Part shown: positions 4,890 to 64,000 of the stretch, one piece after another | How the letters are laid out: every line of letters begins with the position of its first letter | Position numbering within the stretch: the first letter of the stretch is position 1 | DNA from: Coemansia sp. RSA 487 | Lineage: Eukaryota > Kickxellomycota > Kickxellomycetes > Kickxellales > Kickxellaceae | Reading direction: 5' to 3' | Length of the DNA stretch: 64,000 bases | Assembly (NCBI GenBank): GCA_027577595.1 | Contig: JANBRJ010000071.1 | Span: 26,404 to 90,403 of the forward strand | Made by a program: the position numbers and the translations under genes | Notes under the pieces: model-generated | The model's input: the letters and a program-made list of their open reading frames with translations, nothing else | What the model was told of the DNA's origin: nothing | The model's database searches: none

Positions 4890-6473
4890 CTATACAATCT
4901 GAAGAAAGCCTTTTTTGTCGCAACAATTGCTCCCTGTCTCCCCCTTTCCCTTTGTGTTCCTCCTGGCACCGGTCGTGTCTGCGCGCTGGGCCACAAGAAC
5001 CACATTCCGCGGAGACTCGACCACATCGAAAAGCGCAAAAGCCTGCACCAACCCATCGGTGCCACAGCACTCGCGCAGATATAGCGCCCGATCAGCCACA
5101 AGCATGCTTTCGACCAGCGGCCCCGCCATCGACATGAGCGTCCACGCTGCAGCCACCTGCTGCAGCCCGTGCCTCATCTCACGCTGGCACTCGACGCACT
5201 GCGCAACCGTCGGCCTCCAGGCATGCTGCATCTTGTCCAGCGCTGCCAGCACATATACCGCAAACTCCTTGCCCGCGCCTGCATCATCGTGCGCAATGTC
5301 GCTTAGCTGCAAGGCAACGTCTTCACGCGTCATCACAGCTCTAAGGTCGTTGTCTTTGACCCGACCAACAACTGGAATTATGTCATCTGCCGAAAGCTGC
5401 CCATGCGAGACCATCATATACTGCAGCAACGCTCTATGATAGCTACGCTTGAATACGCCTACAGCACCGGCTGCATCCCTCTCCCACCTATTTGTCGCTT
5501 GACAGGCAGTCTTGAGCGCGTTGGTTCCCAAGCTCACGTTTCTGAATGCGCTTTGCGACAGAGGGAACCCTGTGCTCGGCTCCGCTTGACTTGTCGTTTC
5601 CACGCCCGGCGCCGGCTCCGATATAAAGTTATAACAGCAGGGCACCAGAACAACAGCGGCTGCATCCGACTCTGCAAACGCTTTGAGTATTGCGCTTGAC
5701 AGGTCGCCACAGGCATGCAGCCCACACAGCATCCAACGCGCTTCACGCCTGCTCTGGCATGCGGCCTGCGCGGCAGATACAAGCTCGCCAGTGTTTCCCA
5801 TGTCGACCCGCAGAACTTGGTGCTCCAGACGCTCCCGGAGACCCTCTTCCCACATGTATCCTTCTGCCCGAGCTCTCCTGCTTTTGAGTTTCTTGACCAT
5901 GCTCCGATGGAATCCCTCGGCCCCGTGCTTCTGGCCCTCGGAAAAATCCACTGCCAAAACAGACAGCCTGCTCAGCCAGTTCGAGTACGCCAGAACCCGG
6001 GATAAGTAGCCCTGCCCTGCACCAACATCCACAACCAGCCTACTTCCGGTTTCCTTTGCCACGCTGTCAATCAGCTGTGAAAGCTCGACCACCTCCTTGT
6101 GCTTCTTGCCGCTCATCCCGTCCAAAAAGAACTCTACTATCTTCGTCTGTCCACCATCCTGCGCCGGCGCTGGGTCTCTTGGAAATCGCAGCCTGAACGT
6201 AGCGTCAATGTACCTTTTCAGCGACTCTGGTGCATTCTCTGGTACTGTGCCACACGATGCCATCGGAACAAGGCTGTTGATATCAAACTGAGGCGAGTCA
6301 AAGAACCGGCGCCACTCCTCGGGCACCCGGTCCCATTGTGATGACACAAAGAACGCTGCAATGCATATTTTTGGCAAGAATGTGTATTCCTTGTATGTGG
6401 CCACAAGCTCCCTTGCATACTGCTCGATCGAGTCAAACCCAGCCGGAAGCTTAACGCCACTGTCATCCACCAT
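4890..6473 (-). CDS. METTL25/RRNAD1-family methyltransferase-like protein
   Basis: A 527-aa protein with a SAM-binding Rossmann motif VVDVGAGQGYLSR at about residues 147-159, followed by the family-specific GLHACGDLS and PCCYNF motifs at about 250-285. This combination marks the METTL25/METTL25B (RRNAD1) group, found in most eukaryotes. Human METTL25 proteins resemble rRNA adenine dimethylases in fold, but their substrate is poorly defined, so no precise reaction is assigned. The C-terminal tail (last ~25 residues) is basic and low complexity. The start is the ATG at 6473, just downstream of a (TA)n tract. It is a single exon. Confidence 0.85.
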   Translation of the reverse strand: MVDDSGVKLPAGFDSIEQYARELVATYKEYTFLPKICIAAFFVSSQWDRVPEEWRRFFDSPQFDINSLVPMASCGTVPENAPESLKRYIDATFRLRFPRDPAPAQDGGQTKIVEFFLDGMSGKKHKEVVELSQLIDSVAKETGSRLVVDVGAGQGYLSRVLAYSNWLSRLSVLAVDFSEGQKHGAEGFHRSMVKKLKSRRARAEGYMWEEGLRERLEHQVLRVDMGNTGELVSAAQAACQSRREARWMLCGLHACGDLSSAILKAFAESDAAAVVLVPCCYNFISEPAPGVETTSQAEPSTGFPLSQSAFRNVSLGTNALKTACQATNRWERDAAGAVGVFKRSYHRALLQYMMVSHGQLSADDIIPVVGRVKDNDLRAVMTREDVALQLSDIAHDDAGAGKEFAVYVLAALDKMQHAWRPTVAQCVECQREMRHGLQQVAAAWTLMSMAGPLVESMLVADRALYLRECCGTDGLVQAFALFDVVESPRNVVLVAQRADTTGARRNTKGKGETGSNCCDKKGFLQIV

Positions 6474-6477
6474 GCTT

Positions 6478-6483
<6 letters not shown>

Positions 6484-6513
<30 letters not shown>
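6484..6513. repeat. (TA)n microsatellite
   Basis: A run of about 15 TA units immediately upstream of the METTL25-like start codon, in the position of its promoter or leader. Confidence 0.9.
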
Positions 6514-6517
<4 letters not shown>

Positions 6518-7310
6518 ATCGTTCTTTTGAGCAAAGTAAAAAAGACGTGTGCTGTGTCGCCAAGAAACAGACATACAAACAAAATTAGAAGAATCTACAA
6601 ACTTTATCATTTCTGTCAATGCTATAATATCCCGTTTACTTGATATTCTTTTGCCATTTGGTTCTACGATTTTGGAATAATGGTTTTGCCACTTGCGCCA
6701 TAAATCGCTTGATCATAATAACTGCTAAACTCCACATAACCAAACGCGTTTAAAGCACACTAACAATGGCTGTACTAGTCTCATCTTCATACTTGTTGTG
6801 CAGCTAATTCCCTTGTAGAGAGCAAAGACAGACAAAACTAAGAGTAGACAAAGCCTTTGCAAATCCAATAAAAATTTGCAGAATAAAAAGAGTATGAGTT
6901 ATCTTCTTGAAGAACTAAACATGGAGGACAATGCATGCCCTTGGTATCAAGCTATTCACCCTATTTTTTACCATCTAAATATAGTAATATTAAATTATTA
7001 TTATTATTATTATATCCGAAATATACGTCGTATCATATTTGGCATGGTGCTACAAGCACAGCAATATAAATAAATAGAATATCCGGTTGTTTATTGCTTT
7101 TTTGTAGTTCCCACAGCATTTTCCATTAATCACCCATTCAGAATGTGACTTTAGACAGCACAGCTCATAAAAACTGTGCTCAATTGTATTTCTACCCAAA
7201 TCGCGCTCTTGCTTTACTCTATCTATTTTCTCCATTTCAATCGCTCACATATCTAACAACACTGCCACACACAGCATTATCAAGGATTAGCACTTTATAC
7301 TCCTCTTATA
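6514..7310. other. A/T-rich spacer, start of accessory island
   Basis: No credible gene. It contains a (TTA)n run at about 6995-7012. Base composition drops sharply in G+C compared with the neighbouring METTL25-like gene. Confidence 0.5.
7166..7173 (+). promoter_or_regulatory. TATA-like element of small-paralogue gene 1
   Basis: CATAAAAA about 145 bases before the ATG at 7311. The two sister genes have CATATAAA at 139 and 148 bases before their ATGs. The shared spacing suggests a common core promoter layout. Confidence 0.45.
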
Positions 7311-7529
7311 ATGCCAGTTTATGAAGATATTAATGAGCAAGATATTACTGCTTATGTTGACAATTGGAAAAAGCAGCTCAAACGCGACTTTGAGCTTCTA
7401 CTAATTGACGAAGATAAAAAAACATACAATATACGTCTAATATTTGAAAATGATAGATATTTTAATTTTAAGGTTTCCAAAGCAACGAAGGATAGGATTA
7501 TAAGTAGGCCAAGGAAAAACTCACTCTAA
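7311..7529 (+). CDS. Small orphan protein, tandem family member 1
   Basis: A 72-aa protein I do not recognise. It begins MPVYEDINEQDITAYV and then has NWKKQ. It shares with the ORFs at 8369 and 9758 the pattern Y-x-D-I-[ND]-x-x-D-I-[TS]-x-x-[VI]-x-x-W-[KR]-K in the first ~21 residues, then alternating hydrophobic and charged residues suggesting several beta strands (for example YNIRLIF and YFNFKV), and a basic tail. It has no signal peptide, membrane segment or cysteine. The predicted form is one N-terminal helix packed on a small sheet. Conservation of length and motif in three copies argues that it is a real gene although short. Function is unknown. Confidence 0.7.
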   Translation: MPVYEDINEQDITAYVDNWKKQLKRDFELLLIDEDKKTYNIRLIFENDRYFNFKVSKATKDRIISRPRKNSL

Positions 7530-8368
7530 GCCCTGCTCCAAAGTTTTATATTGTGTGGATAGTTTGCTACTATCATTTACTGGCTACCATTATTGTGAAT
7601 ACCGCAAAAAGCCGACTTACTGTGGATTCCAACTGCTTTCAGTTGTTTTGCCTTGTTTTTTATTTGGTATATACGGATGAATATTTTTTACGGCCAACCA
7701 AACAGCAACGACAACGGGTAACATTACACGTATTTAAGAAGGGTTTCCCATTAATAGTTGCTAATAAATTCAAACCCATAGATATAACCCTAGCCATACC
7801 TCGTCAGATAATAGCTTTCTATTTTTAAAGTACCCCTCTATAGCTCTATAGGCCGCATTCTCTCAACAAAACCTGTGCTTATTGCATAAATCGATATTAG
7901 GACACAGCTAGAAAAGACAGACAAACATTAGAAATGTAATCAAGAGTGGAGACACAGCACATTTTTTACAAACATTGCAGAAAGGACTTCTTTGTGGAAA
8001 GGGTAAAGCAGTCAGCACTTTAACATAATCGCCATGTAATTGGGCCCTTTTCCACTTTATCTTGGATTTCCAAGCAGATAAAACATAAAACCACAAGAAG
8101 TGTTACATTTCGTCATATATATGTATGTATGTATAGTTAACAATAAATGTTGCACGACAAAGCAGGAAAGTGATGTGTCAAATATCAGTCAGCATTTTAT
8201 TACAAATGCAAACGTTGACATAGATATGACATATAAAAAGACAAGTTTTCCGTCTGTCCATTTCTCAGAATTCGTACCACTACTTACCATTCCACAACAA
8301 GAATACAATAATATCAACACCAGCACAAGTTATTCCTATAGTTTTGCAGAAGTGCCAATACACCACCA
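7530..8368. other. Spacer between small paralogues 1 and 2
   Basis: A/T-rich. A 91-codon ORF at 7553 has no recognisable features and is probably chance. A short (ATGT)n run lies at about 8119-8131. The promoter of gene 2 lies in the last 140 bases. Confidence 0.5.
8230..8240 (+). promoter_or_regulatory. TATA-like element of small-paralogue gene 2
   Basis: CATATAAAAAG, 139 bases before the ATG at 8369. The ~25 bases that follow resemble those after the matching element of gene 3 (a shared GTTTTCC/GGTTTCC and GTC pattern). Confidence 0.5.
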
Positions 8369-8593
8369 ATGGTTACATATGTTGATATAGATGGTAACGA
8401 TATTACCGACGAGGTCAACTATTGGAAAAAGCTAACCTATCGTGGCCATGTTGTGGTCGAATATTATAATAACAGAAAGCAATGTTTACTAAAGCTGGAG
8501 AATAGAAATGATGGAAGATATTGTTTTAAAGTTGTGGTTACTGCACAAATGCTGAATATTATATTGGGTAGAAAACGCAGCAAAACATTGTAA
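8369..8593 (+). CDS. Small orphan protein, tandem family member 2
   Basis: A 74-aa protein of the same unknown family as the ORFs at 7311 and 9758. It begins MVTYVDIDGNDITDEV, followed by YWKK; the N-terminal motif is the most conserved part. The C-terminal half has strand-like segments (CLLKLE, YCFKVVV) and ends in a basic tail (GRKRSKTL). Unlike gene 1 it has two cysteines. It is complete, starts at the first ATG and has no visible intron. The tandem same-strand arrangement points to origin by local duplication. Divergence in the second half is high, so the copies are old or fast-evolving. Function is unknown. Confidence 0.7.
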   Translation: MVTYVDIDGNDITDEVNYWKKLTYRGHVVVEYYNNRKQCLLKLENRNDGRYCFKVVVTAQMLNIILGRKRSKTL

Positions 8594-8804
8594 AGATACT
8601 TTAGAGGGGATGTGCTTTACAAATATCCAGCTGGTATGGTAAACACCATGCAACACTTAAAGTATTTACAAGTTGTTTTAAATAATGTTTTAGTGTCTAA
8701 ATAACAACAGCTACGCATTTTTGTGTTGGGGAGAAATGAAAAATAATGTGGATTGTTGGAGTAAAAATGCTGTGAAATAAGCGAGAAACCCCTTTCTTTG
8801 AAAT

Positions 8805-8972
8805 ATGGAAGCGGAAGCCAAGTGTAAAATAAAGCGTTGTCTATCGGTTGACCCCAAGAAAAAACGGCAATTTCAAAGCAAGCTACTAAATTATACTGTT
8901 GACGGCTTTGCTCATATTAAACCGAAACCATACGTGTGGTATTGTGATGCCAATATGACTAGCAAGCTATAG
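8805..8972 (+). CDS. Very short ORF of uncertain status
   Basis: A 55-aa ORF from ATG to TAG. It is Lys/Cys-rich at the start (MEAEAKCKIKRCLSVDPKKK) and later reads PYVWYCD. It does not carry the motif of the neighbouring small family. It could be a chance ORF, a fragment of a longer lost gene, or a real microprotein. No domain was recognised. Confidence 0.15.
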   Translation: MEAEAKCKIKRCLSVDPKKKRQFQSKLLNYTVDGFAHIKPKPYVWYCDANMTSKL

Positions 8973-9609
8973 CTCTTTGACAGAATCCAGCAAACAAATT
9001 TAATCTCGTGGACATATCATATGTTTCATCAGCTATAGACTTACACTCCCTGCAACGGAAAGGTAAGCACGCACTATTATGTGTAGGTAAATGTTTTTCT
9101 GCAAAAATCCCTACAAAATCCTTTGATACAAAACGTTAACAAATAAATTGCAAATGTCAAAACAATTGCTTGCTTGCTTGTTTGAACACCAATTGGGTAG
9201 CTTCAAAGGTGCACGCTTCTGGGATACAAAATAAGAATTTTCAATGAAAGACAAGTGAACGGTTTTTACATTAGAAATCCAGTGCTTGAACATCCTTAAA
9301 GCCAAAGCCCCGTTGACTTTTATGTTAAATATGATCACGCACTGTCATTCGCCTATTCCAAAAGTCACATTACCATTATTTGCTTGCCTAGGTAATTTGT
9401 TTGCTTTTCTGCTAAAGCTATACAAAGAAATAACAAGGAATTTATGAAGCCTTCGGTAAAGACTAAAGCTGTTGGGGTGGATTTCTTTTGCAAAATCCTT
9501 TATCAGCATTTGTATTTCTTGCTGAAAATATTAATAAAAATTGGAATGCATGCTGCCAGCATGGCGTCCTAGCTTGGACGTAAAAGTTTACAAAACCCAG
9601 CCTTCCAAG

Positions 9610-9620
9610 CATATAAATAG
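9610..9620 (+). promoter_or_regulatory. TATA box of small-paralogue gene 3
   Basis: CATATAAATAG, a good TATA box, 148 bases before the ATG at 9758. It is matched in position by similar elements upstream of the two sister genes. Confidence 0.55.
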
Positions 9621-9757
9621 CCATGGTTTCCTGCTCGTCAACGTCTTGGGTTTCTCTCCATCACTTGCCCACTATTACATACTTGTAGCCAAATACTACA
9701 GATACAAACGCACAAGCACTATATACATTAGAGAATCTATCACTCATCAACCTCACA

Positions 9758-9964
9758 ATGGCCAAGTACACCGATATTAACGGCAAAGATATTTCCAAGA
9801 AAATTGCTAACTGGAGAAAAAATACTAGCGGTATTGCCTACACTGTAATCCCGAAAGGCAGCGATTACAAAATAACCCTAGAGAGCGATGATGGCAAAAC
9901 TGAAATTTGCGAATTTACTGTTAGTGCGAAAACGAAGAAGCTGATTTTACTATCCGAGAATTAA
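9758..9964 (+). CDS. Small orphan protein, tandem family member 3
   Basis: A 68-aa protein, the third tandem member of the unknown family. It begins MAKYTDINGKDISKKI, followed by NWRKN. The second half has strand-like YKITLE and EFTVSAK and ends in LILLSEN, so it lacks the basic tail of genes 1 and 2. It is slightly more G+C-rich than its sisters and has the clearest TATA box and a good start context (CACAATGGCC). It has no signal peptide or membrane segment, so a cytoplasmic or nuclear location is likely. Function is unknown. Confidence 0.75.
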   Translation: MAKYTDINGKDISKKIANWRKNTSGIAYTVIPKGSDYKITLESDDGKTEICEFTVSAKTKKLILLSEN

Positions 9965-10365
9965 GCATTTACCATACAGAGCCGTTTTCAGCGGCTAGGT
10001 GGATAATAACTAACTATATGCTATCGTGATTTGAGTAGTACATCTGTTTTCATTTATTCACCAATAAATATCAAGTATTTTCTAATACTGCATTTGGATG
10101 AAAAGAAGTGCACGGGTACTATGTCGAAATATGAGCATCAATCGGGAAATCAATCCATTGTCGGTTGATCCGCCCTGCTTGTCCTATAATTAAAAGTGTT
10201 TGCTTAGCGATCGTCAGTTTCGCAAGCGTTTGAATCGGCTGTTGCTGCTAGAAGGCAAAATTTCAAATTGCAGCTTTTCTCTGTTTTATTTGTTTTTTTT
10301 TTTTTACTTTCACAGCAGCCAAAAGCCACAAGTACTTTTTCTACAGAATATTGCAACTTTATTGT
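9965..10365. other. Spacer before OGG1
   Basis: A/T-rich and non-coding as far as I can see. It contains a poly-T run near 10290-10302. It would carry the 3' end of small gene 3 and the OGG1 promoter. Confidence 0.5.
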
Positions 10366-10482
10366 ATGCGGCTGTTGGGTATCGAACAACGCTTTCAATA
10401 CAAGACGCTTTCTTCCATATCCTTAAGCGTTCGGAATACTAGGAAGATCCACACATTTAGTACAAGCTATTTCATATATAAA

Positions 10483-11721
10483 ATGATGGTTAACAGTTTA
10501 ATAAAGAAGGAAAGCGAAGGTATCGACATCCAGGTTCCGTGGAAAGATCTTGAGGTAAGCCCGAGCGAGTTACGTCTGAATCAAACGCTCATGTGCGGCC
10601 AGGCATTCCGCTGGAAATCAACGGGCGAAAATGAGTGGACTTGCGCACTTTGGGACACCGTGGTGGACCTCAAACAAACGTCCGAAACAGTACTCTATCG
10701 GTCTTTGGGGCACAGGCTAGCTGGCTATTCCGAAAAACCTGGGGGTTTGGCGGATGAACTGCACGAGTACTTTCGACTGGACGAAAACCTTGGATTGCTT
10801 TGCGATAGATGGGCATCGGTGGATCCGGACTTTGATAGTCTGCGACAGACCCAGCTAGGGGTTCGTGCTCTAAAGCAGCCAGTTGTCGAAAACATGTTTA
10901 CGTTCATTGCGTCATCCAACAACAACATCAAGCGGATAACAATGCTAATCGACAAGCTGTGCCAGCAGTACGGCCATCCGATTGATACAGCCAAAGGCAC
11001 ATTTCATACGTTTCCTAGAGTGCAGGATATTGCACAGGATAAGGACATCGAGGGCTCGTTTACAAAGATGGGATTTGGATACCGCGCAAAGTACTATGCC
11101 AAGACGGTTGAGCGTCTATCAGCCGAGCACGAAGACCCAGAGCAATTTTTGCTTGGTCTGCGTGCAAACACCTCATGGGAATCGGTCAAGGCGCAGCTCA
11201 TGCAGTTTAGCGGCGTTGGACCCAAGGTGGCCGACTGTATTTGCCTCATGTCGATGGACAAAATAGACGCAGTTCCTGTGGATACACACATCTGGCAGAT
11301 TGCAAAGAGAAGATATGTCGATCGTATTTTAGCGTTGCGATCCGACAGCGTGCTTAGCAGCCAGGCGATACAGATAGCTGACGACAAAAAAGATTCAGTA
11401 ATCGGGCTTGCAAGAGAGCTGTCGACGGCAAAGCTGCCTACAACAAAGACGTACGAGACGGCGCAGAAACTGTTTGTTGATCTTTTCAGCCCGCATGCAG
11501 GATGGGCGCAACTGCTTTTATTTTCAGGAGATCTGGATAGTTCAAATGGCATCAAGAAGCCGGCTAAAAAGTCAGCAAAGCCAGCCAAGACAGAAAACCA
11601 GCCAAAGCGCAAAGCTAGCGTCAAGACTGTTGCTCCAAGCAATGCAGATCGCGCTCTAGACGAAGCCAAATGCAGAGTGCCTATGCTTCGAAGCAGAAGC
11701 AAAAGAAGCAGAGCTGATTAG
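10483..11721 (+). CDS. OGG1: 8-oxoguanine DNA glycosylase/lyase
   Basis: A 412-aa bifunctional base-excision repair enzyme that removes 8-oxoguanine opposite cytosine and nicks the strand. An N-terminal OGG domain (CGQAFRW at about 42-48) is followed by the HhH-GPD domain. The hairpin FSGVGPKVADC carries the Schiff-base lysine at residue 248, and VPVDTH carries the catalytic Asp at 267. These match human Lys249 and Asp268 almost exactly in numbering, which supports the ATG at 10483. The frame is also open upstream with another ATG at 10366, which would add a 39-residue basic, Ser/Thr-rich leader resembling a mitochondrial presequence. The C-terminal ~60 residues are Lys/Arg-rich and probably a nuclear signal. 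The gene is convergent with PGS1, only 60 bases apart. Confidence 0.95.
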   Translation: MMVNSLIKKESEGIDIQVPWKDLEVSPSELRLNQTLMCGQAFRWKSTGENEWTCALWDTVVDLKQTSETVLYRSLGHRLAGYSEKPGGLADELHEYFRLDENLGLLCDRWASVDPDFDSLRQTQLGVRALKQPVVENMFTFIASSNNNIKRITMLIDKLCQQYGHPIDTAKGTFHTFPRVQDIAQDKDIEGSFTKMGFGYRAKYYAKTVERLSAEHEDPEQFLLGLRANTSWESVKAQLMQFSGVGPKVADCICLMSMDKIDAVPVDTHIWQIAKRRYVDRILALRSDSVLSSQAIQIADDKKDSVIGLARELSTAKLPTTKTYETAQKLFVDLFSPHAGWAQLLLFSGDLDSSNGIKKPAKKSAKPAKTENQPKRKASVKTVAPSNADRALDEAKCRVPMLRSRSKRSRAD

Positions 11722-13667: not shown

Positions 13668-14147
13668 TTAATGGTCCTCTGCCCACTCGTTCTCCTTCCT
13701 GATCTGCTCCCTCTCCTCCTCTGTAAAGTCGTCGACAATGTTGAACATCTTGCGGATCTCCTCAGCAGTCTTGTTTCTAATCATGTTGGCAACAGTCTTG
13801 CAGCCCAGGTCAAGAAGAGGCTTGATGTCCATGTAGTTGGATGCAAGCAGAATCTCGAACAGCAGCTCCTGGTCGACATCAATGAACTTCTCATCCCAGG
13901 GCTCAATGTCGTCGGAGCGCTTGGGCAGGTCGTCGTACTCCTCGTTCAGGGCAGGAGGGTCGTCCATGTGGTGGGTGCAGTACTCGATAATCTTCTCTAG
14001 CACCTTGCCGGTGACGTTTGGCAGGGGGATGGCCTCGTCGGTCTCACCAACATCGTCGAGCAGGTTCCTAATCAGAGTGCTCTGTGTGGCAATCTTCATA
14101 TCCACGGCAAACTCCTTGTTGTCGGACGAGCAAAGCTTTACACTCAT
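13668..14147 (-). CDS. SKP1: SCF ubiquitin ligase adaptor Skp1
   Basis: A 159-aa protein, normal length for Skp1, which bridges cullin-1 and F-box proteins in SCF ligases. The N-terminal BTB/POZ-like fold includes LPNVTGKVLEKIIEYC. An acidic loop follows at about 65-85. The C-terminal Skp1 dimerisation domain has PLLDLGCKTVANMI, and the protein ends in ENEWAEDH, equivalent to the conserved C-terminal ENxW segment that contacts F-boxes. All expected parts are present, so this is the functional copy. A diverged paralogue lies about 1 kb away on the same strand. Confidence 0.95.
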   Translation of the reverse strand: MSVKLCSSDNKEFAVDMKIATQSTLIRNLLDDVGETDEAIPLPNVTGKVLEKIIEYCTHHMDDPPALNEEYDDLPKRSDDIEPWDEKFIDVDQELLFEILLASNYMDIKPLLDLGCKTVANMIRNKTAEEIRKMFNIVDDFTEEEREQIRKENEWAEDH

Positions 14148-15178: not shown

Positions 15179-15661
15179 TCACTGTAGCTGTGCCAGCTCC
15201 TTTTGGATCTGTATGCGCTGTTCATCGGTAAAATCGTCCTCGATGCCGTAGCGCTGGCGTATATCATCGACCGACAACGAGCGAATAATCTTGGCAATGA
15301 CAGTGCATCCGAGCTCAACAAGCGGCTCAATGCTCAAGTAATCGGCAGCAGAAAGAATCTCCAGCATCAGTGTATCGTCGACATCCATAAACCGCCGGTC
15401 CCATGCATCGACTACGCTGTCGCTCTGGACAAGGTCTGGTGTGCTGCTGAGGATGCGCGCATCATCCTTGTGGTGCGTACAGTATTCGATGATCTTGGCC
15501 AGCACCATGCCCCGCACGTTTGGCAGAATAATGGGCTCGTCGGTCTGGCCGACATCTTCGACTGTGTTTCGCACCAAGTCGCTGATGTACGCGGATGCCT
15601 TGTCGACCAGAAACTGCTGCCCGTCGTTGGATTCAAGCCTGATCATTGCTGTTCTATCCAT
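15179..15661 (-). CDS. Diverged Skp1 paralogue lacking the C-terminal ENxW segment
   Basis: A 160-aa Skp1-family protein, roughly half identical to the copy at 13668-14147 by eye. The POZ part is well kept (ILPNVRGMVLAKIIEYCTHHKDD), as is the start of the Skp1 domain (LSIEPLVELGC, IEDDFTDEQ). The end is different: IQKELAQLQ replaces the ENEWAEDH tail that packs against F-box helices. It may still bind cullin but bind F-box proteins differently, or not at all. Full-length reading frame and conserved core argue against a pseudogene. Skp1 families with extra diverged members are known in plants, worms and some protists, but I cannot place this copy in them. Confidence 0.88.
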   Translation of the reverse strand: MDRTAMIRLESNDGQQFLVDKASAYISDLVRNTVEDVGQTDEPIILPNVRGMVLAKIIEYCTHHKDDARILSSTPDLVQSDSVVDAWDRRFMDVDDTLMLEILSAADYLSIEPLVELGCTVIAKIIRSLSVDDIRQRYGIEDDFTDEQRIQIQKELAQLQ

Positions 15662-19751: not shown

Positions 19752-22700
19752 ATGGCTGGGGTGGCCTATACACAAAAGTGGAGCGTGCAGGGCATGACAT
19801 GCCAGTCATGCGTGCGGTCGATTGAAGCAGTGCTCCAGGATGTGGAGGGCGTTCAGTCAGTGTCCGTGTCGCTGGAAGAGAACAGCGCAGCTGTTGCGTA
19901 CGACCCACAGGAAGTTAGCGCGCAGGACATAACAGAGGCCATCGAGGGCTGTGGATTTGACGCACAAGCAGTGGCCGATAGTGTTCGGCACCAAACAACG
20001 CTCGGGGTGCATGGAATGACGTGCCAGTCGTGCGTCAAGAGCATAAAGGCTGCGCTCGGCGGGGTTGCAGGTATCGAGGCAGCCGATGTGTCGCTGGAAG
20101 ACAATGCGGCCACGGTCACCTGGGACCCGCATGCAGTCGATGGCGGAGTAGGCGCAATTGCCAAGACCATCGAAGATGCCGGGTTCGACGTCAGTGTGGA
20201 AGACGACCCCGCCAAGGAAACAACAGAGGTTGTGGCTGTGGCTGTTGACGGGATGACGTGCCAGTCGTGTGTCGCTTCGGTCACCATGGCGCTTAAGGAC
20301 ACGCCAGGCGTCGTGGATGCCAAGGTGGAGCTTGAGCCAAGAGGCAAGGCGCTTGTGACTATCGACAGAGCAGCAGTAGACATGGCCACGGTGATGGCAG
20401 CAATCGAAGACGCCGGGTTCGACGCCACGCTGGAGCCGGCTGCTAACAGCAGCGACTGGAGCCAGGCCAGCACATCGTCGGCCACTCTGGCTGTGAAGCA
20501 TCAGTCCCCCGAAGATACTGCATCCAGCGCTGGAGTGCTTTCGCCGCTGCTCCAATCAGGAAAGCCCGAGAGGAAGCTCCGCACACGCGGAATATCCACC
20601 AGCAGCGGACCCATCCGCTCAAGCTCGAGCGCAAAGTCCGGCGAGACACTGCTGGACCCAGGCGAGACGATACAGATCGAGGTGCGCGGAATGACGTGCT
20701 CGTCGTGTGTGGCCCTGATCGAGCGCACGCTTAGGTCACGTGACGGAATCCAGAACATTAGTGTTTCATTGCTTGCACAGCGCGCAAACGTGCACTACGA
20801 CAGCAGCATAATCTCGCAGGCGACAATTGTCCAGGCCATCGGTGACCTGGGCTTTGAGGCCAAGCCCATGGACGGCGGTACGCAGCGCGTGGCAAAGGTC
20901 AGTCTCAACATATATGGCATGACGTGCGCCTCTTGCGTGTCGTTGGTGGAGCGCGCGCTGAAGAGGGAGCCTGGCGTGGTTTCAGTGGCGGTTAGCTTGG
21001 CGCTGGAGACAGCAGCCATTGAGTACCGTCCGTCGGAGATCGGGGTGCGCCGGTTAGTCGCCGTGGCCGAGAGTGCCGGCTTCGACGTGCTCGTGGCTGA
21101 CTCCACGCAGGTCAACACGCAGCTGGAGTCGCTGCAGCGCACCAAAGACATCATTGCATGGCGGCAGCGGTTCTGGCGGTCGCTGTGGTTCTCCCTGCCT
21201 GTGATCTTCCTGGCCAAGTTTGCGCCGCACATCGATCCGCTGAAAAAGGTCTTTGGCTGGCAGATGGTTGCTGGCCTTCCGCTTGGCGTCTTCTTCCAGC
21301 TGCTGCTGACGACGCCGCTTCAGTTCGTGATCGGCGCACAGTTCTACCGCAACGCAATCAAATCCCTGCGCCATGGCAACGCCAACATGGACGTGCTTGT
21401 CACCACGGGAACCACGCTTTCGTACTTCTTCTCGCTGTTTATGCTCTCATGGTCGGTGCTCCACGGAAAGCATCCGCGGCCGCACTGCTTCTTTGAGGCC
21501 TCCGCCATGCTGATCACGTTTGTTTCGCTGGGCCGCTATCTAGAGAACTTGGCCAAGGGCAATGCGTCGGCGGCGCTGTCGACGCTAATGACGCTGACGC
21601 CCAACAACGCGACGCTGATTGTGTACGCCGACGATGGACGCATTGCCGACGAGAAGCAGATCCCGACCGAGCTGATCCAGCCAGGCGACCACTTGCGCGT
21701 GTTCCCCGGCGACCGGATCCCTGCCGATGGACACGTGGTTGACGGCGCCTCGCAGGTGGACGAATCGACAGTGACGGGCGAGTCGCTGCCTGTGGCCAAG
21801 AAGCAGGACAGCGAAGTTGTAGCTGGCACGGTGAACGGAACCGGATCGTTCGTCATGGAGGCATCGCGCGTCGGCTCAGACACGACGCTTGCGCAGATCG
21901 TCCACCTGGTTGAAGAGGCACAGACTGCTAAGGCGCCGATCCAGGCGTACGCAGACCGTGTAGCACAGTACTTTGCGCCGGCGGTTCTGGTGCTTGCGGT
22001 GGTGTCGCTGATTGCGTGGCTGCTGATTGCGTACACGGGGCTGCCGAAGCCGCAGATGTTCAAGGACGAGGCGCAGGCGACCGGGAGCTACGTGGTTGGA
22101 TGCCTGAAGATCGCCGTCGCTGTGGTTGTTGTTGCGTGTCCGTGCGCGCTGGGCCTGAGCACGCCGACTGCCGTGATGGTTGGAACCGGCGTGGGAGCGC
22201 AGCTGGGCGTCCTGATCAAGGGCGGCGATGCGCTGGAGGCCGCCAGCGACATTGACGTTGTTGTCTTTGACAAAACCGGCACTCTTACCAGGGGCAAGCT
22301 GGCTGTCGCTGACCTGAGCTTTGAGCGCCGCACTGCCAGTGGCCTTGCTCTCTCGCAGCGCACGCTTGCGCTCCTTGCCGGCGCAGCTGAATCGCGGTCG
22401 GAGCATCCGCTTGGCCGTGCCATCGTGGCACACGCGCAGTCTCTGCTCCTCCTGCCTGGCGAGCAGACGCTTCCTGCGACGGTGTCGGCCTTCGACTCTG
22501 TCCCCGGCCAGGGCGTGCGCTGCACAGTAACGCCCGAGTCGTCGTCGCGCGAGTACGCTGGAGATATGCTAAAGGAGGCACCGCAGGGCGTGGCTGTGCT
22601 CGTGGGGAGTGCCGATTTCCTGGCCTCCGAGGGCGTTGGCATCCCGGCCGAGTGCACGGCAGCCAAGGTAGCGCAGGAGCGCTCTGGCCGCACGGTGATC

Positions 22701-23708
22701 CTTGTAGCAGCGAACGGCGCGTACGCCGGATGGATCGCCCTTGCCGACGTGTTGCGCGCCGAGTCGGTGCCTGCCATTGCCACGCTGCAGAGCAAGATGG
22801 GCATCGAGTGCATCATGGTTACTGGCGATCAGCCGCTGACTGCCCAGGCAGTGGCCGCCGAATGTGGCATCCGCCGCGTCTACGCCAGCGTGTCGCCTGC
22901 CGGAAAGGCCACTATCATCCGCCACATCCAGCAAGAGACCAAGCCCGCCCGGCAAGGCCTGCTCTCCAGACTACTGCGCTGCGTCTGCTTCTGCTCAAGA
23001 CGCAGCCGCCGTCATCGCGCGCCGGCTGCCACCAAGAAGGTGGCAATGGTTGGCGACGGCGTCAATGATGGCGCTGCGCTGGTCGCCTCTGACGTGGGCA
23101 TTGCCATGCGCTCCGGCACAGATGTGGCGATGGAAGCTGCAAGCATGGTTCTGATGCGCGAGGATGTCACCGACGTCGTGGCAGCTCTGGATCTGTCGCG
23201 CACAATTTTCCGCCGCATCCAGTGGAACTATGTGTGGGCTAGCATATACAACATGCTGGGTCTTCCGCTTGCCATGGGCATTTTCATGCCTTTGGGCATC
23301 ATTCTGCCGCCTGTCTTTGCCGGCCTGGCCATGGCGATGAGCAGCGTCAGCGTCATGGTCAGCAGCTTGCTGCTCAAGCTGTACCGCCGTCCCATTTGTG
23401 CCGCGCCAGACTCTCTATCACTTCCTTTGCCCCTCAACCTAGTGCGTGTCCTCGCAGCACCGCGTGCTGCTGCTCCTATGCGCCGTTCGCTGGCCTCGAC
23501 TGATGGTCGTTATGATGGAGATGAGTTTTTCGTTGATGTGTCGGATATCTTGGACGACGATGAGGATGCTGTCGAGCTTGGGCCGGTTTCCATTAGCAAC
23601 AACATGCAGCAGCAAGGCTCTATGCGTGGCCAAACAGGCGGTTACTTTAACTTTTCACCTGTGTCGCCTAGCCATGCATATGAGCGTGTTCCCCAGAACG
23701 AAGCTTGA
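19752..23708 (+). CDS. CCC2: Copper-transporting P1B-type ATPase (Ccc2/ATP7-like)
   Basis: A 1318-aa copper pump that would move Cu(I) into the Golgi lumen for secreted cuproenzymes. Five N-terminal heavy-metal domains carry GMTCxxC: three GMTCQSC (about residues 14, 88, 167), then GMTCSSC (313) and GMTCASC (389). Yeast Ccc2 has two and human ATP7A/B six. The core shows TGES (about 675), CPCALG (about 797, membrane copper site), DKTGT with the phosphorylated Asp near 840, SEHPLG and GDGVND (about 1100). Two oddities: a ~70-residue Ser-rich linker between domains 3 and 4, and a basic Cys-containing insert (CVCFC) just before GDGVND. The symbol is by family, not proven orthology. Confidence 0.95.
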   Translation: MAGVAYTQKWSVQGMTCQSCVRSIEAVLQDVEGVQSVSVSLEENSAAVAYDPQEVSAQDITEAIEGCGFDAQAVADSVRHQTTLGVHGMTCQSCVKSIKAALGGVAGIEAADVSLEDNAATVTWDPHAVDGGVGAIAKTIEDAGFDVSVEDDPAKETTEVVAVAVDGMTCQSCVASVTMALKDTPGVVDAKVELEPRGKALVTIDRAAVDMATVMAAIEDAGFDATLEPAANSSDWSQASTSSATLAVKHQSPEDTASSAGVLSPLLQSGKPERKLRTRGISTSSGPIRSSSSAKSGETLLDPGETIQIEVRGMTCSSCVALIERTLRSRDGIQNISVSLLAQRANVHYDSSIISQATIVQAIGDLGFEAKPMDGGTQRVAKVSLNIYGMTCASCVSLVERALKREPGVVSVAVSLALETAAIEYRPSEIGVRRLVAVAESAGFDVLVADSTQVNTQLESLQRTKDIIAWRQRFWRSLWFSLPVIFLAKFAPHIDPLKKVFGWQMVAGLPLGVFFQLLLTTPLQFVIGAQFYRNAIKSLRHGNANMDVLVTTGTTLSYFFSLFMLSWSVLHGKHPRPHCFFEASAMLITFVSLGRYLENLAKGNASAALSTLMTLTPNNATLIVYADDGRIADEKQIPTELIQPGDHLRVFPGDRIPADGHVVDGASQVDESTVTGESLPVAKKQDSEVVAGTVNGTGSFVMEASRVGSDTTLAQIVHLVEEAQTAKAPIQAYADRVAQYFAPAVLVLAVVSLIAWLLIAYTGLPKPQMFKDEAQATGSYVVGCLKIAVAVVVVACPCALGLSTPTAVMVGTGVGAQLGVLIKGGDALEAASDIDVVVFDKTGTLTRGKLAVADLSFERRTASGLALSQRTLALLAGAAESRSEHPLGRAIVAHAQSLLLLPGEQTLPATVSAFDSVPGQGVRCTVTPESSSREYAGDMLKEAPQGVAVLVGSADFLASEGVGIPAECTAAKVAQERSGRTVILVAANGAYAGWIALADVLRAESVPAIATLQSKMGIECIMVTGDQPLTAQAVAAECGIRRVYASVSPAGKATIIRHIQQETKPARQGLLSRLLRCVCFCSRRSRRHRAPAATKKVAMVGDGVNDGAALVASDVGIAMRSGTDVAMEAASMVLMREDVTDVVAALDLSRTIFRRIQWNYVWASIYNMLGLPLAMGIFMPLGIILPPVFAGLAMAMSSVSVMVSSLLLKLYRRPICAAPDSLSLPLPLNLVRVLAAPRAAAPMRRSLASTDGRYDGDEFFVDVSDILDDDEDAVELGPVSISNNMQQQGSMRGQTGGYFNFSPVSPSHAYERVPQNEA

Positions 23709-46555: not shown

Positions 46556-47394
46556 ACGACTAGACTACAGTGGTGATGAGCCGATGTTTTTCCGTTTATA
46601 ATATATGAATCGTGTTTGAACCTGCAACACAGTGGCCAAAGTAGTCAATTGGCATAAAAGCGTCGCAAATGTTGTTTTTGATCGCGGTTCAGCAAAAAAT
46701 ACAGCAAGCTGCGTAGTTGCAAACAGTGGGGAACAGCGCAGACGCTACTGCGTTAAGCCAAAGACCAAGAAAGAGAGATAGAAAGTCCAAAGTAAACGAT
46801 CTGATAGTGCCTACATAGCACAACCACACAAAAATCACAACTTTATTTGTTAAAAGGTGCGATAAAGAAAGCAACGTCTGCAGAACACAGCTACAGAGCT
46901 AGCATCTGGTGGTGGATGGTGTACTGGCTAGAACAACTACTGGTGGGTCTCCATATGAGAAATAATAGCGATTAGCCAATGTCTATTCTATTTAGCCTTT
47001 TATAAAATAATAAGACAATGGCACATACGTGCTGTTTCTACAAACGCTACATGTTTATCATATCTCGGTGTCATACCACAGGTAAAAAGAAGCAATAGAT
47101 ATGTTGACAGTAAAATAGCATTGGCTCGCCACTATATTTGCACCTCCTCCTTTCTTTTCATTTCGTGTGAATTGTGATACTTTTGAGTAGGAATATGAGC
47201 TGGGTGACGTTTTGGTGGTTACTGCACGTGCATGCTTCCTAAAAGCAAAAAGAAATTTTGCAAAGGCACATGAATGCGACTACGTGTCACCACAACCCCA
47301 AGCGCTATAGTATTTTTCTTCTTTATTTGTCTTCAATTTTCGCATTATTAATAATTGTAGCAAGTAGCTAATACTTTCATAAGGGACTGGTGGG
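46556..47394. other. Intergenic, nothing recognised
   Basis: 839 A/T-rich bases between GDB1 and the SNARE gene. Only chance ORFs. Confidence 0.5.
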
Positions 47395-61499: not shown

Positions 61500-64000
61500 C
61501 TATTGTCCAAAGTCGTTTGCCTTGACAAGCTTTGCAAAATATCCGTTCTCTGTAAGCAGCTCTCTAGGTGGACCGATTTCTGCTACTCTTCCGTTGTCCA
61601 CGACGATAGTCCGATCACTATTCATAATGGTTTCCAAACGATGTGCAATAGTAAGTGCTGTGCAGCCTTTAAATTCAGAGTGAATAAGCTCTTGCATACG
61701 CTGGTCTGTTTCCAAATCAACGTTTGCTGTAGCTTCATCTAGAACAACAATCTTACGATTGCGCATCAATAGCCTGCAAAGACCAAACAATTGCTGTTGT
61801 CCATCGCTAAACCTATCACCCGCAAATATGCTAAGCCCATGTGGTCGTACCTCCCGAGTAGCAGCTCTATATATTCGGGGCTTTGTTATGAACCGATACA
61901 AGAATAGGCACTTAGACCAGTTTGCCCCTTTCCACTTTTCGTCCCAATCGCTAGGTTCCTCGAGCGTGTCTTCATCAGTGTAATCTCCAATATCATCAGA
62001 ACCACGAGCATATGGTGGCTGAACATTGTCAACAATCCCACATTTAATAACTGCTGACCACATATCCTCCACACTATGCTTGACAAGTGAATCGAGGTTC
62101 TGTCTAAATGTTCCTTCAAGCATTGTTGGTTCTTGTGGGATAATGCCCAACTTTGGTCGCAGGTCGCCAATATTGAGCGAGAAAATGTCCTGGCCATCAA
62201 TTACAATAGATCCATTGCATGTGCTGCTGTCAATTAGATGAAATAAAGCTCGAGTGAGTGACGTTTTGCCAGCATCTGTTCTACCAACAATTCCAATCTT
62301 TTCATTTGGATTTACGGTCAAATTGACATTCTTTAGCACATGCTCTAAATCTTCACGATACTTCATGCTAAAATTGCGGAATTCAATCTTACCAGCAGCT
62401 GGCCACTGCTCTTCTGGTTTTGTTGCATCATCAACAAACATCTTTTCTCCATCCATATTTATATACTGCCTAAGTTTTTCGATCCTGTGCTTAAAACTCA
62501 AAGCATCAGCTTTTAAACCAATAATGTATTCTACATTATCCGCCAATCCATATGTCAAATTCATGTATGCATCGAACTTTATGGAGGATATTCCATGCCG
62601 AAATTGTCGGTTACGAATTAAAGTGAACATCGCATACAGGGAATAAGCAGGCCTATACGATATAAGATTTAATATTTCTATGAAATTGGAAAGTAAGCGT
62701 TGTGACAAATTGACACAATATTCCTTGTCCTTTTCATCCATATATCTTGCTGTAAAGTATTTCTCCACATCAAATATGTGAATAAGCCTCGTTCCATCCG
62801 CAATGATATCATCTACCTGCTCTTGATTAATCAATACTTGCGTTTCTACTTTTTCCAATGATAAGCGTGCCAAACTCTGTACTGATCCTGTATATTGATA
62901 ATACAGTATCTAGAATCTTAGTAGTATTTCTCTCCAAAAATTGTGGTATATCAGCAGACATTGCTTCAGTGTCATTATATGCTGAGGACATTTCCTGCCT
63001 TGTAGTGCTGTCAAATAATGCCAATGGTCCATGTATGAGCCTATCAATAAACATGGCTTTGATTCGAGGATCGAAATACATTTCTGATATATAGTCATTG
63101 ACATACCGCTTCAAGCTAAATATTAACTTCTCCCAGCCGCTTTTAAGCACCGCAATAAACAAGTATCTTTGAATCACACTGCTTGTTAGGTTGGAACCTT
63201 CTTTATATTTAATTATATCCAATATATAGCCATCGAGAATAAACTGTGAAATAGGATTTATGGCTGCTGAGGATAAAATAATAGCCATTGTAGGTCCACC
63301 ACATGTCTTTAATACAAACTTTGCATAATCCCAGTCACCCCAGTCCTTTTTAGCTATTTCTGGAATGGCATCGCTATCTTTATCAATCTCATTCACTATA
63401 TCATCTGCTGGATCTAATGCCTGGTCAGCATTACTATCATTATCGAGCTTGGGACAAGTGTTATCGCTATCTAATAAAATCTCTAGATTTTCTGTTAATG
63501 GTTGATATTTCTGTCGTGTGTTCTGCGAAACAGCTATATTGCTGTCATCATCAAGAGACACAATCTTATCAAAATATGGCAATAGAACCTGCAAATTAAC
63601 AGATACTATGCGAATTTTGCCAGCAAGTAACCCAGAATCCATGATAACATGGTCAAGGATGTGTCGCTTTACAAGTGCATCAACAGCAGATAGTTGATCA
63701 TCCAATATGTAAATATTAGCTCTTGAATAAACAGCCCGTGCAAGTGCAAGCCGTGCCTTTTGGCCACCAGAGATGTTGGTACCACACTCGGAGCCGGAAA
63801 TACGGCGCTGCCCGAGAGACCATACTGATGAGGTACCAGAAAAGACGAGAGAACACTTGCTTGAGTGCACGATAGGAGGCCTGGAGCTGCCAGCACCGCA
63901 GATGGGAAGCATTGTGGCAGCGTGGACTGACGAGCATGTCCGTAAGCGGAAACCTATGGTGGGCATATCGCAAACGGATAAGAGGAACGCTTTCGAGACA
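61500..64000 (-). pseudogene. Broken ABCC/MRP-type ABC transporter, 5' end missing
   Basis: From the edge inward: the end of nucleotide-binding domain 1 ([17 protein letters not shown] signature, then [11 protein letters not shown] Walker B), an acidic linker, a short transmembrane domain 2, then domain 2 (signature FSDGQQQLFGL, Walker B IVVLDEATANVD, H-loop TIAHR). The frame changes at about 62830-62909: one frame ends at 62827 and the next is open only from about 62909. Around that join part of domain TMD2 is missing. The second Walker A reads GRTDAGKTS, with Asp for the usual Gly. The 63740-64000 part is GC-richer and upstream of the signature no longer looks like an ABC domain. It is probably a pseudogene; a missed intron or sequence error is possible. 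Confidence 0.7.

Follow-up and report, generated by a model that had tools for sequence, protein, structure and literature searches.

The A/T-rich island and its three open reading frames

The window analysed here, i.e., the whole 64,000-nucleotide stretch of contig JANBRJ010000071.1 of Coemansia sp. RSA 487, contains an A/T-rich island in which three short, related open reading frames (ORFs) are found (Table 1). The GC content of the kb bins spanning positions 7001–10000 is 0.35, 0.35, and 0.38, and that of the other 61 bins ranges from 0.37 to 0.66. The island is flanked on the left by a methyltransferase gene, which we take to be METTL25-like, and on the right by the gene for the 8-oxoguanine DNA glycosylase OGG1. 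The GC bins and the Pfam domains of the flanking genes bear out the proposal, made in an earlier sequence-only reading, that an A/T-rich island separates two conserved genes. The six checked genes beside the island are each a single long open frame. Rfam gave no match over the island at gathering thresholds, and the four other island ORFs have no Pfam match at E ≤ 0.01. Relative to the METTL25-like start, a TA microsatellite covers bases −39 to −10.

Elsewhere in the window, two SKP1 genes adjoin each other, the second having the poorer match to the Skp1 dimerisation domain (E 6.3e-10 vs 3.1e-26). Near the contig end, an ABC transporter ORF has upstream of it a long ORF in another frame; the arrangement may reflect a gene that has introns, is broken, or is truncated where the contig ends.

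Table 1. Features of the window, with distances given from the first base of the ORF concerned.
Feature	Position	Strand	Remarks
Left flank, methyltransferase	4890–6473	−	Methyltransf_32 domain
TA microsatellite	6483–6512		
Strict TATA box (TATAWAWR)	7065–7072	+	−246 from copy 1 start
Relaxed TATA-like box (YATAWAWR)	7166–7173	+	−145 from copy 1 start
Copy 1 (A)	7311–7529	+	72-aa ORF, basic tail
Strict TATA match inside TA run	8116	+	−253 from copy 2 start
Strict TATA box	8232–8239	+	−137 from copy 2 start
Copy 2 (B)	8369–8593	+	74-aa ORF, basic tail
Strict TATA box	9612–9619	+	−146 from copy 3 start
Copy 3 (C)	9758–9964	+	68-aa ORF, basic tail absent
Right flank, OGG1	10366–11721	+	OGG_N, HhH-GPD
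SKP1, first gene	13668–14147	−	
SKP1, second gene	15179–15661	−	
Metal-pump P-type ATPase	19752–23708		five heavy-metal-associated stretches
Dispersed repeat, ~0.5 kb	about 46570–47135		directly downstream of a presumed glycogen debranching gene
Best further profile match	46620–46778		weak; part of the dispersed repeat
ABC transporter ORF	61500–62741	−	ABC_tran
Long ORF upstream of ABC transporter	62827–63966	−	no Pfam match at 1e-5

The positions, shared strand, and lengths first read for the three ORFs proved exact, and the tails differ among the copies as had been described. The start-to-start spacings are 1058 and 1389 bases. All three translations carry the N-terminal pattern Y-x-D-I-[ND]-x-x-D-I-[TS]-x-x-[VI]-x-x-W-[KR]-K. 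In a MAFFT alignment, the residues invariant in the trio are M1, Y4, D6, I7, D11, I12, W19, K21, K37, F53, V55, and I63, which look structural rather than catalytic. The proteins have a pI of 8.9–9.4. No hydrophobic N-terminus is evident by eye in the three sequences, and the proteins are probably intracellular.

Local BLOSUM62 alignment scores the three pairs at 73, 63, and 58, where shuffles average 23–26 (z 7.9–9.7), and in every pair the score was reached by 0 of 5000 shuffles. Among the 143 ATG ORFs of 55–100 residues in the window, the trio counted, the best non-trio score is 39. Most of the similarity falls within the first ~23 residues: in their best local alignment, copies 2 and 3 align over these residues only, and for copies 1 and 3 the best local alignment has long gaps beyond them. 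At the DNA level, similarity within the ORFs has z values of 7.8 for copies 1 and 2, 2.0 for copies 1 and 3 (modest, being reached by 11 of 200 shuffles), and 4.8 for copies 2 and 3. Upstream of the ORFs the corresponding values are 0.9, 0.5, and 3.8, the last reached by 2 of 200 shuffles, and downstream they are 2.0, 0.2, and −0.1. Thus, as copies 2 and 3 are alike in their upstream DNA, the promoter was probably duplicated along with the gene; copy 1 either lost this upstream similarity or never possessed it.

The observation of three related ORFs therefore holds, and the pairwise protein and DNA similarities support the view of them as three probable tandem paralogues; the related copies are adjacent, as in a tandem gene family. 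The comparison of dN/dS between copies that had been suggested was informative for one pair: by NG86 over codons 2–23, copies 1 and 2 give dN 0.45 and dS 1.44, and dS is saturated in both pairs that include copy 3. Either the copies arose long ago or the genes are fast.

Leaders and TATA-like boxes

The starts of copies 1, 2, and 3 are preceded by ATG-free stretches of 168, 143, and 135 bases. On the + strand of the island, ATGs are spaced 59 bases apart on average, and 6 of 60 gaps reach at least 133 bases, three of these being the trio leaders. By our own arithmetic, judged post hoc, the coincidence has a chance probability of ~0.0006. The − strand has 8 ATG-free gaps of at least 133 bases among 73 ATGs, so long gaps are not rare there.

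A TATA-like box lies at −137 to −146 in all three copies, two of the boxes being strict and one relaxed. Of 21 other window genes, one has a box within −160 to −120, at −151, the gene presumably being PGS1; in this comparison the start is the first ATG of a long ORF, some starts may be wrong, and the labels are our own. The + strand of the island has four strict TATA sites in all, those of Table 1, the TA microsatellite aside. Both the TATA and the leader tests were selected after inspection of the sequence. The three 600-base upstream regions have two 8-mers in common (one word and its reverse complement) vs 1.55 in shuffles, which is no excess, and 30 common 7-mers vs 19 in shuffles, whose maximum is 40. 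TATA-type promoters fit regulated genes. The boxes do not choose among the roles of regulator, inhibitor, or part of a self/non-self or stress system, all of which are speculation for the trio.

Database relatives and predicted fold

The earlier statement that the signature belongs to no known family agrees with the sequence searches of Pfam, PHROGs, NCBIfam, and the PDB, none of which gave a significant match. It is nevertheless possible, at well below even odds, that the trio comprises diverged members of a known family lying beyond the reach of a profile built from three sequences. The profile does contain only these three sequences (Neff 1.9), and weak, non-significant matches to unrelated families are scattered through the results. 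Against this, Pfam gave nothing above its curated cut-off for any of the three copies, and PHROGs and NCBIfam gave nothing at E ≤ 0.1. In the PDB sequence search, the best match of the trio profile is an unrelated-looking halogenase at E 0.019, and the best E values for copies 2 and 3 as single queries are 0.25 and 0.25. Pattern searches of prokaryote contigs and of viral contigs (IMG/VR) produced 138 and 224 matches, respectively, of which tblastn confirmed none. In the literature on orphan genes, the fold, Kickxellomycotina, and SINEs, no title among those listed names such a family.

The strand-rich second half that had been read from the letters is also present in the AlphaFold2 models of copies 1 and 3, which agree in the order of their elements. 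The model of copy 1, made from the three-sequence alignment, has helix 13–21, strands 26–31, 38–44, and 50–56, and helix 57–64, with a pLDDT of 83.2; the other four models of this copy have mean pLDDTs of 62–72. Structure prediction, proposed earlier as a check, thus gave a helix-strand-strand-strand-helix order for both copies, but with low confidence for copy 3 (pLDDT 63.6). With the copy 1 model as query, Foldseek found no PDB and no BFVD match at E ≤ 0.001. The top PDB match is a WNK1 domain at E 0.30. The best BFVD match by E value is a phage repressor (E 0.056, TMq 0.35), and the highest TMq among the 50 BFVD matches listed is 0.57, for the unnamed A0A6G5Y120 (E 0.09).

SRP14 and the dsRBM have an element order identical to that predicted for the trio, and both are among the weak Foldseek matches of the copy 1 model: S. 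pombe SRP14 has a TMq of 0.49 and the second dsRBM of ILF3 a TMq of 0.42. Like SRP9/SRP14 and dsRBD proteins, the trio proteins are small and basic, with a predicted alpha-beta-beta-beta-alpha order. These likenesses would suit small RNA-binding proteins working in the manner of a dsRBD or SRP9/SRP14, a reading that we consider unlikely. The two Foldseek matches are non-significant (E 0.56 and 0.97) and rank behind the WNK1 domain, and the trio, unlike these families, has no sequence match to them. Neither dsrm (PF00035) nor SRP9/SRP14 (PF05486, PF02290) appears in the Pfam matches at E ≤ 1 for any of the three copies, in a listing from which HMMER's filters drop most matches above 0.1. The genome's own matches lie on other contigs: SRP14 has one match, on C9, SRP9-21 has one match, on C54, and dsrm has two, of which one is over the cut-off. 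An hhalign comparison of the trio profile with the better of these dsrm matches gave a probability of 0.0. RNA contacts in dsRBDs are made through a GPxH loop and a KKxAK motif at helix 2, and on reading the three translations neither motif is present.

Coding character, further copies, and interpretation

We consider that the trio is a real tandem gene family, with a probability of about 0.8. Five signs, which are not fully independent, speak for genes: the peak of DNA similarity within the ORFs, third positions, leaders, TATA boxes, and ORF count. Over codons 2–23, differences are more frequent at third positions than at the other two (permutation p 0.00025), in a segment chosen for protein similarity, a choice that favours third-position excess. 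Over the whole alignment of copies 1 and 2 (72 codons), the excess is absent, with identities of 0.47, 0.57, and 0.50 at positions 1, 2, and 3. This absence, the low similarity beyond the N-terminus, and the A/T-rich codon use of copies 1 and 2 would fit ORFs that are dead or due to chance, in a spacer rich in A/T; GC3 is 0.29, 0.33, and 0.45 in copies 1, 2, and 3 vs 0.53–0.76 in six neighbours. Yet such ORFs would have to be three in number and related, to share a conserved start, and to follow promoter-like boxes and leaders free of ATG. In addition, mononucleotide shuffles have on average 0.78 ATG ORFs of at least 68 residues, and the island itself has five, i.e., the trio plus two ORFs overlapping copies 2 and 3. 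Chance or decay is accordingly a very unlikely origin for the trio.

In the organism's own genome (17.8 Mb, 184 contigs), protein queries and patterns found the trio alone. Two one-mismatch patterns had 23 and 16 matches there, and the reversed patterns 11 and 8. Among frames of at least 25 residues in the fetched loci (4843 frames, repeats counted), none beyond the trio scores above the profile inclusion threshold, the best non-trio score being 10.8 bits within the window and 8.6 bits outside it. A further 16.4 kb of the contig (C71:1-10000 left out) yielded 374 frames, of which 0 fit the profile. In the own-genome search, copies 1 and 2 retrieve each other only at E 0.04, and copy 3 as sole query misses both neighbours at E ≤ 10. 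Since single-copy queries barely reach the sister copies, remote copies could escape these searches.

The best further profile match (10.8 bits, E 0.11) scores above the best match in any of 20 shuffled windows and has a z of 4.8 against copy 3. As a query, however, this piece finds at least 107 places in the genome, itself counted, many with stops. It belongs to a dispersed repeat and for these reasons was rejected as a decayed fourth copy. Nine other fetched copies align to the window repeat, with main pieces 72–86% identical. The repeat shows resemblances to tRNA-like pol III boxes and has similar short repeats near both ends; ARAGORN, applied to 7 of the 10 repeat loci, gave no match, nor did Rfam on the window copy. 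The repeat may be SINE-like.

That the trio is what is left of a mobile element or virus, as the A/T-rich island, the weak profile match within the repeat, and the viral predicted structure with a TMq of 0.57 (though at E 0.09) might suggest, is highly improbable, for the three copies found are all at a single locus, the repeat DNA is no closer to the three ORFs than chance (z 1.7, −0.2, −0.3), and nothing was found in phages (copy 2 as query) or plasmids (copy 3 as query) or, with the alignment as query, confirmed in viral contigs.

For the tandem family, then, the following mechanism is proposed. Tandem duplication would have produced three protein-coding paralogues, each having a separate TATA-type promoter and a leader free of upstream ATGs. 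Induction of the TATA promoter would lead to the making of a product of ~70 residues with the predicted helix-strand-strand-strand-helix fold. The N-terminal arm (YxDI..DI[TS]) may cap the first helix and hold it in place, the invariant Trp sitting in the core, and the variable second half and tail may give each copy a separate target. The product is tentatively seen as a small non-enzymatic binding module that might act one-to-one on a protein partner, as an adaptor or inhibitor, being TATA-induced and having copy-specific targets. The proteins are short and basic, with invariant residues of structural appearance, and we therefore favour a binding module over RNA binding. A bolder version, in which a compact helix-three-strand-helix domain new in one fungal lineage gave rise to tandem-diversified inducible binders directed, for example, at stress or at non-self/foreign elements, seems to us quite unlikely.

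The trio is probably specific to a single lineage of fungi and evolves rapidly in all likelihood, relatives having been sought in Pfam, PHROGs, NCBIfam, the PDB, phages, plasmids, viral and prokaryote contigs, and the own genome, with no fungal collection among them. If translated, it would show cleanly and on a small scale how a short protein, which may be newly arisen, is retained, is duplicated together with its promoter, and diversifies; if not translated, it is one among many fungal orphan families. The signature and the promoter anatomy make the trio easily tested in sister species.

Lineage-specific, or orphan, tandem gene families are a known and common kind. Orphan and new genes as a kind are treated in the review 'De Novo Genes' (PMC12051474). 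The trio is very probably a real, small gene family of this ordinary type, and its sequence signature is new. It is unlike other lineage-specific families in that its signature is in no library searched and its three copies occupy one locus. It is like them in that its members have no family found for them, are small, diverged, and tandemly arranged, and lie in an A/T-rich island.
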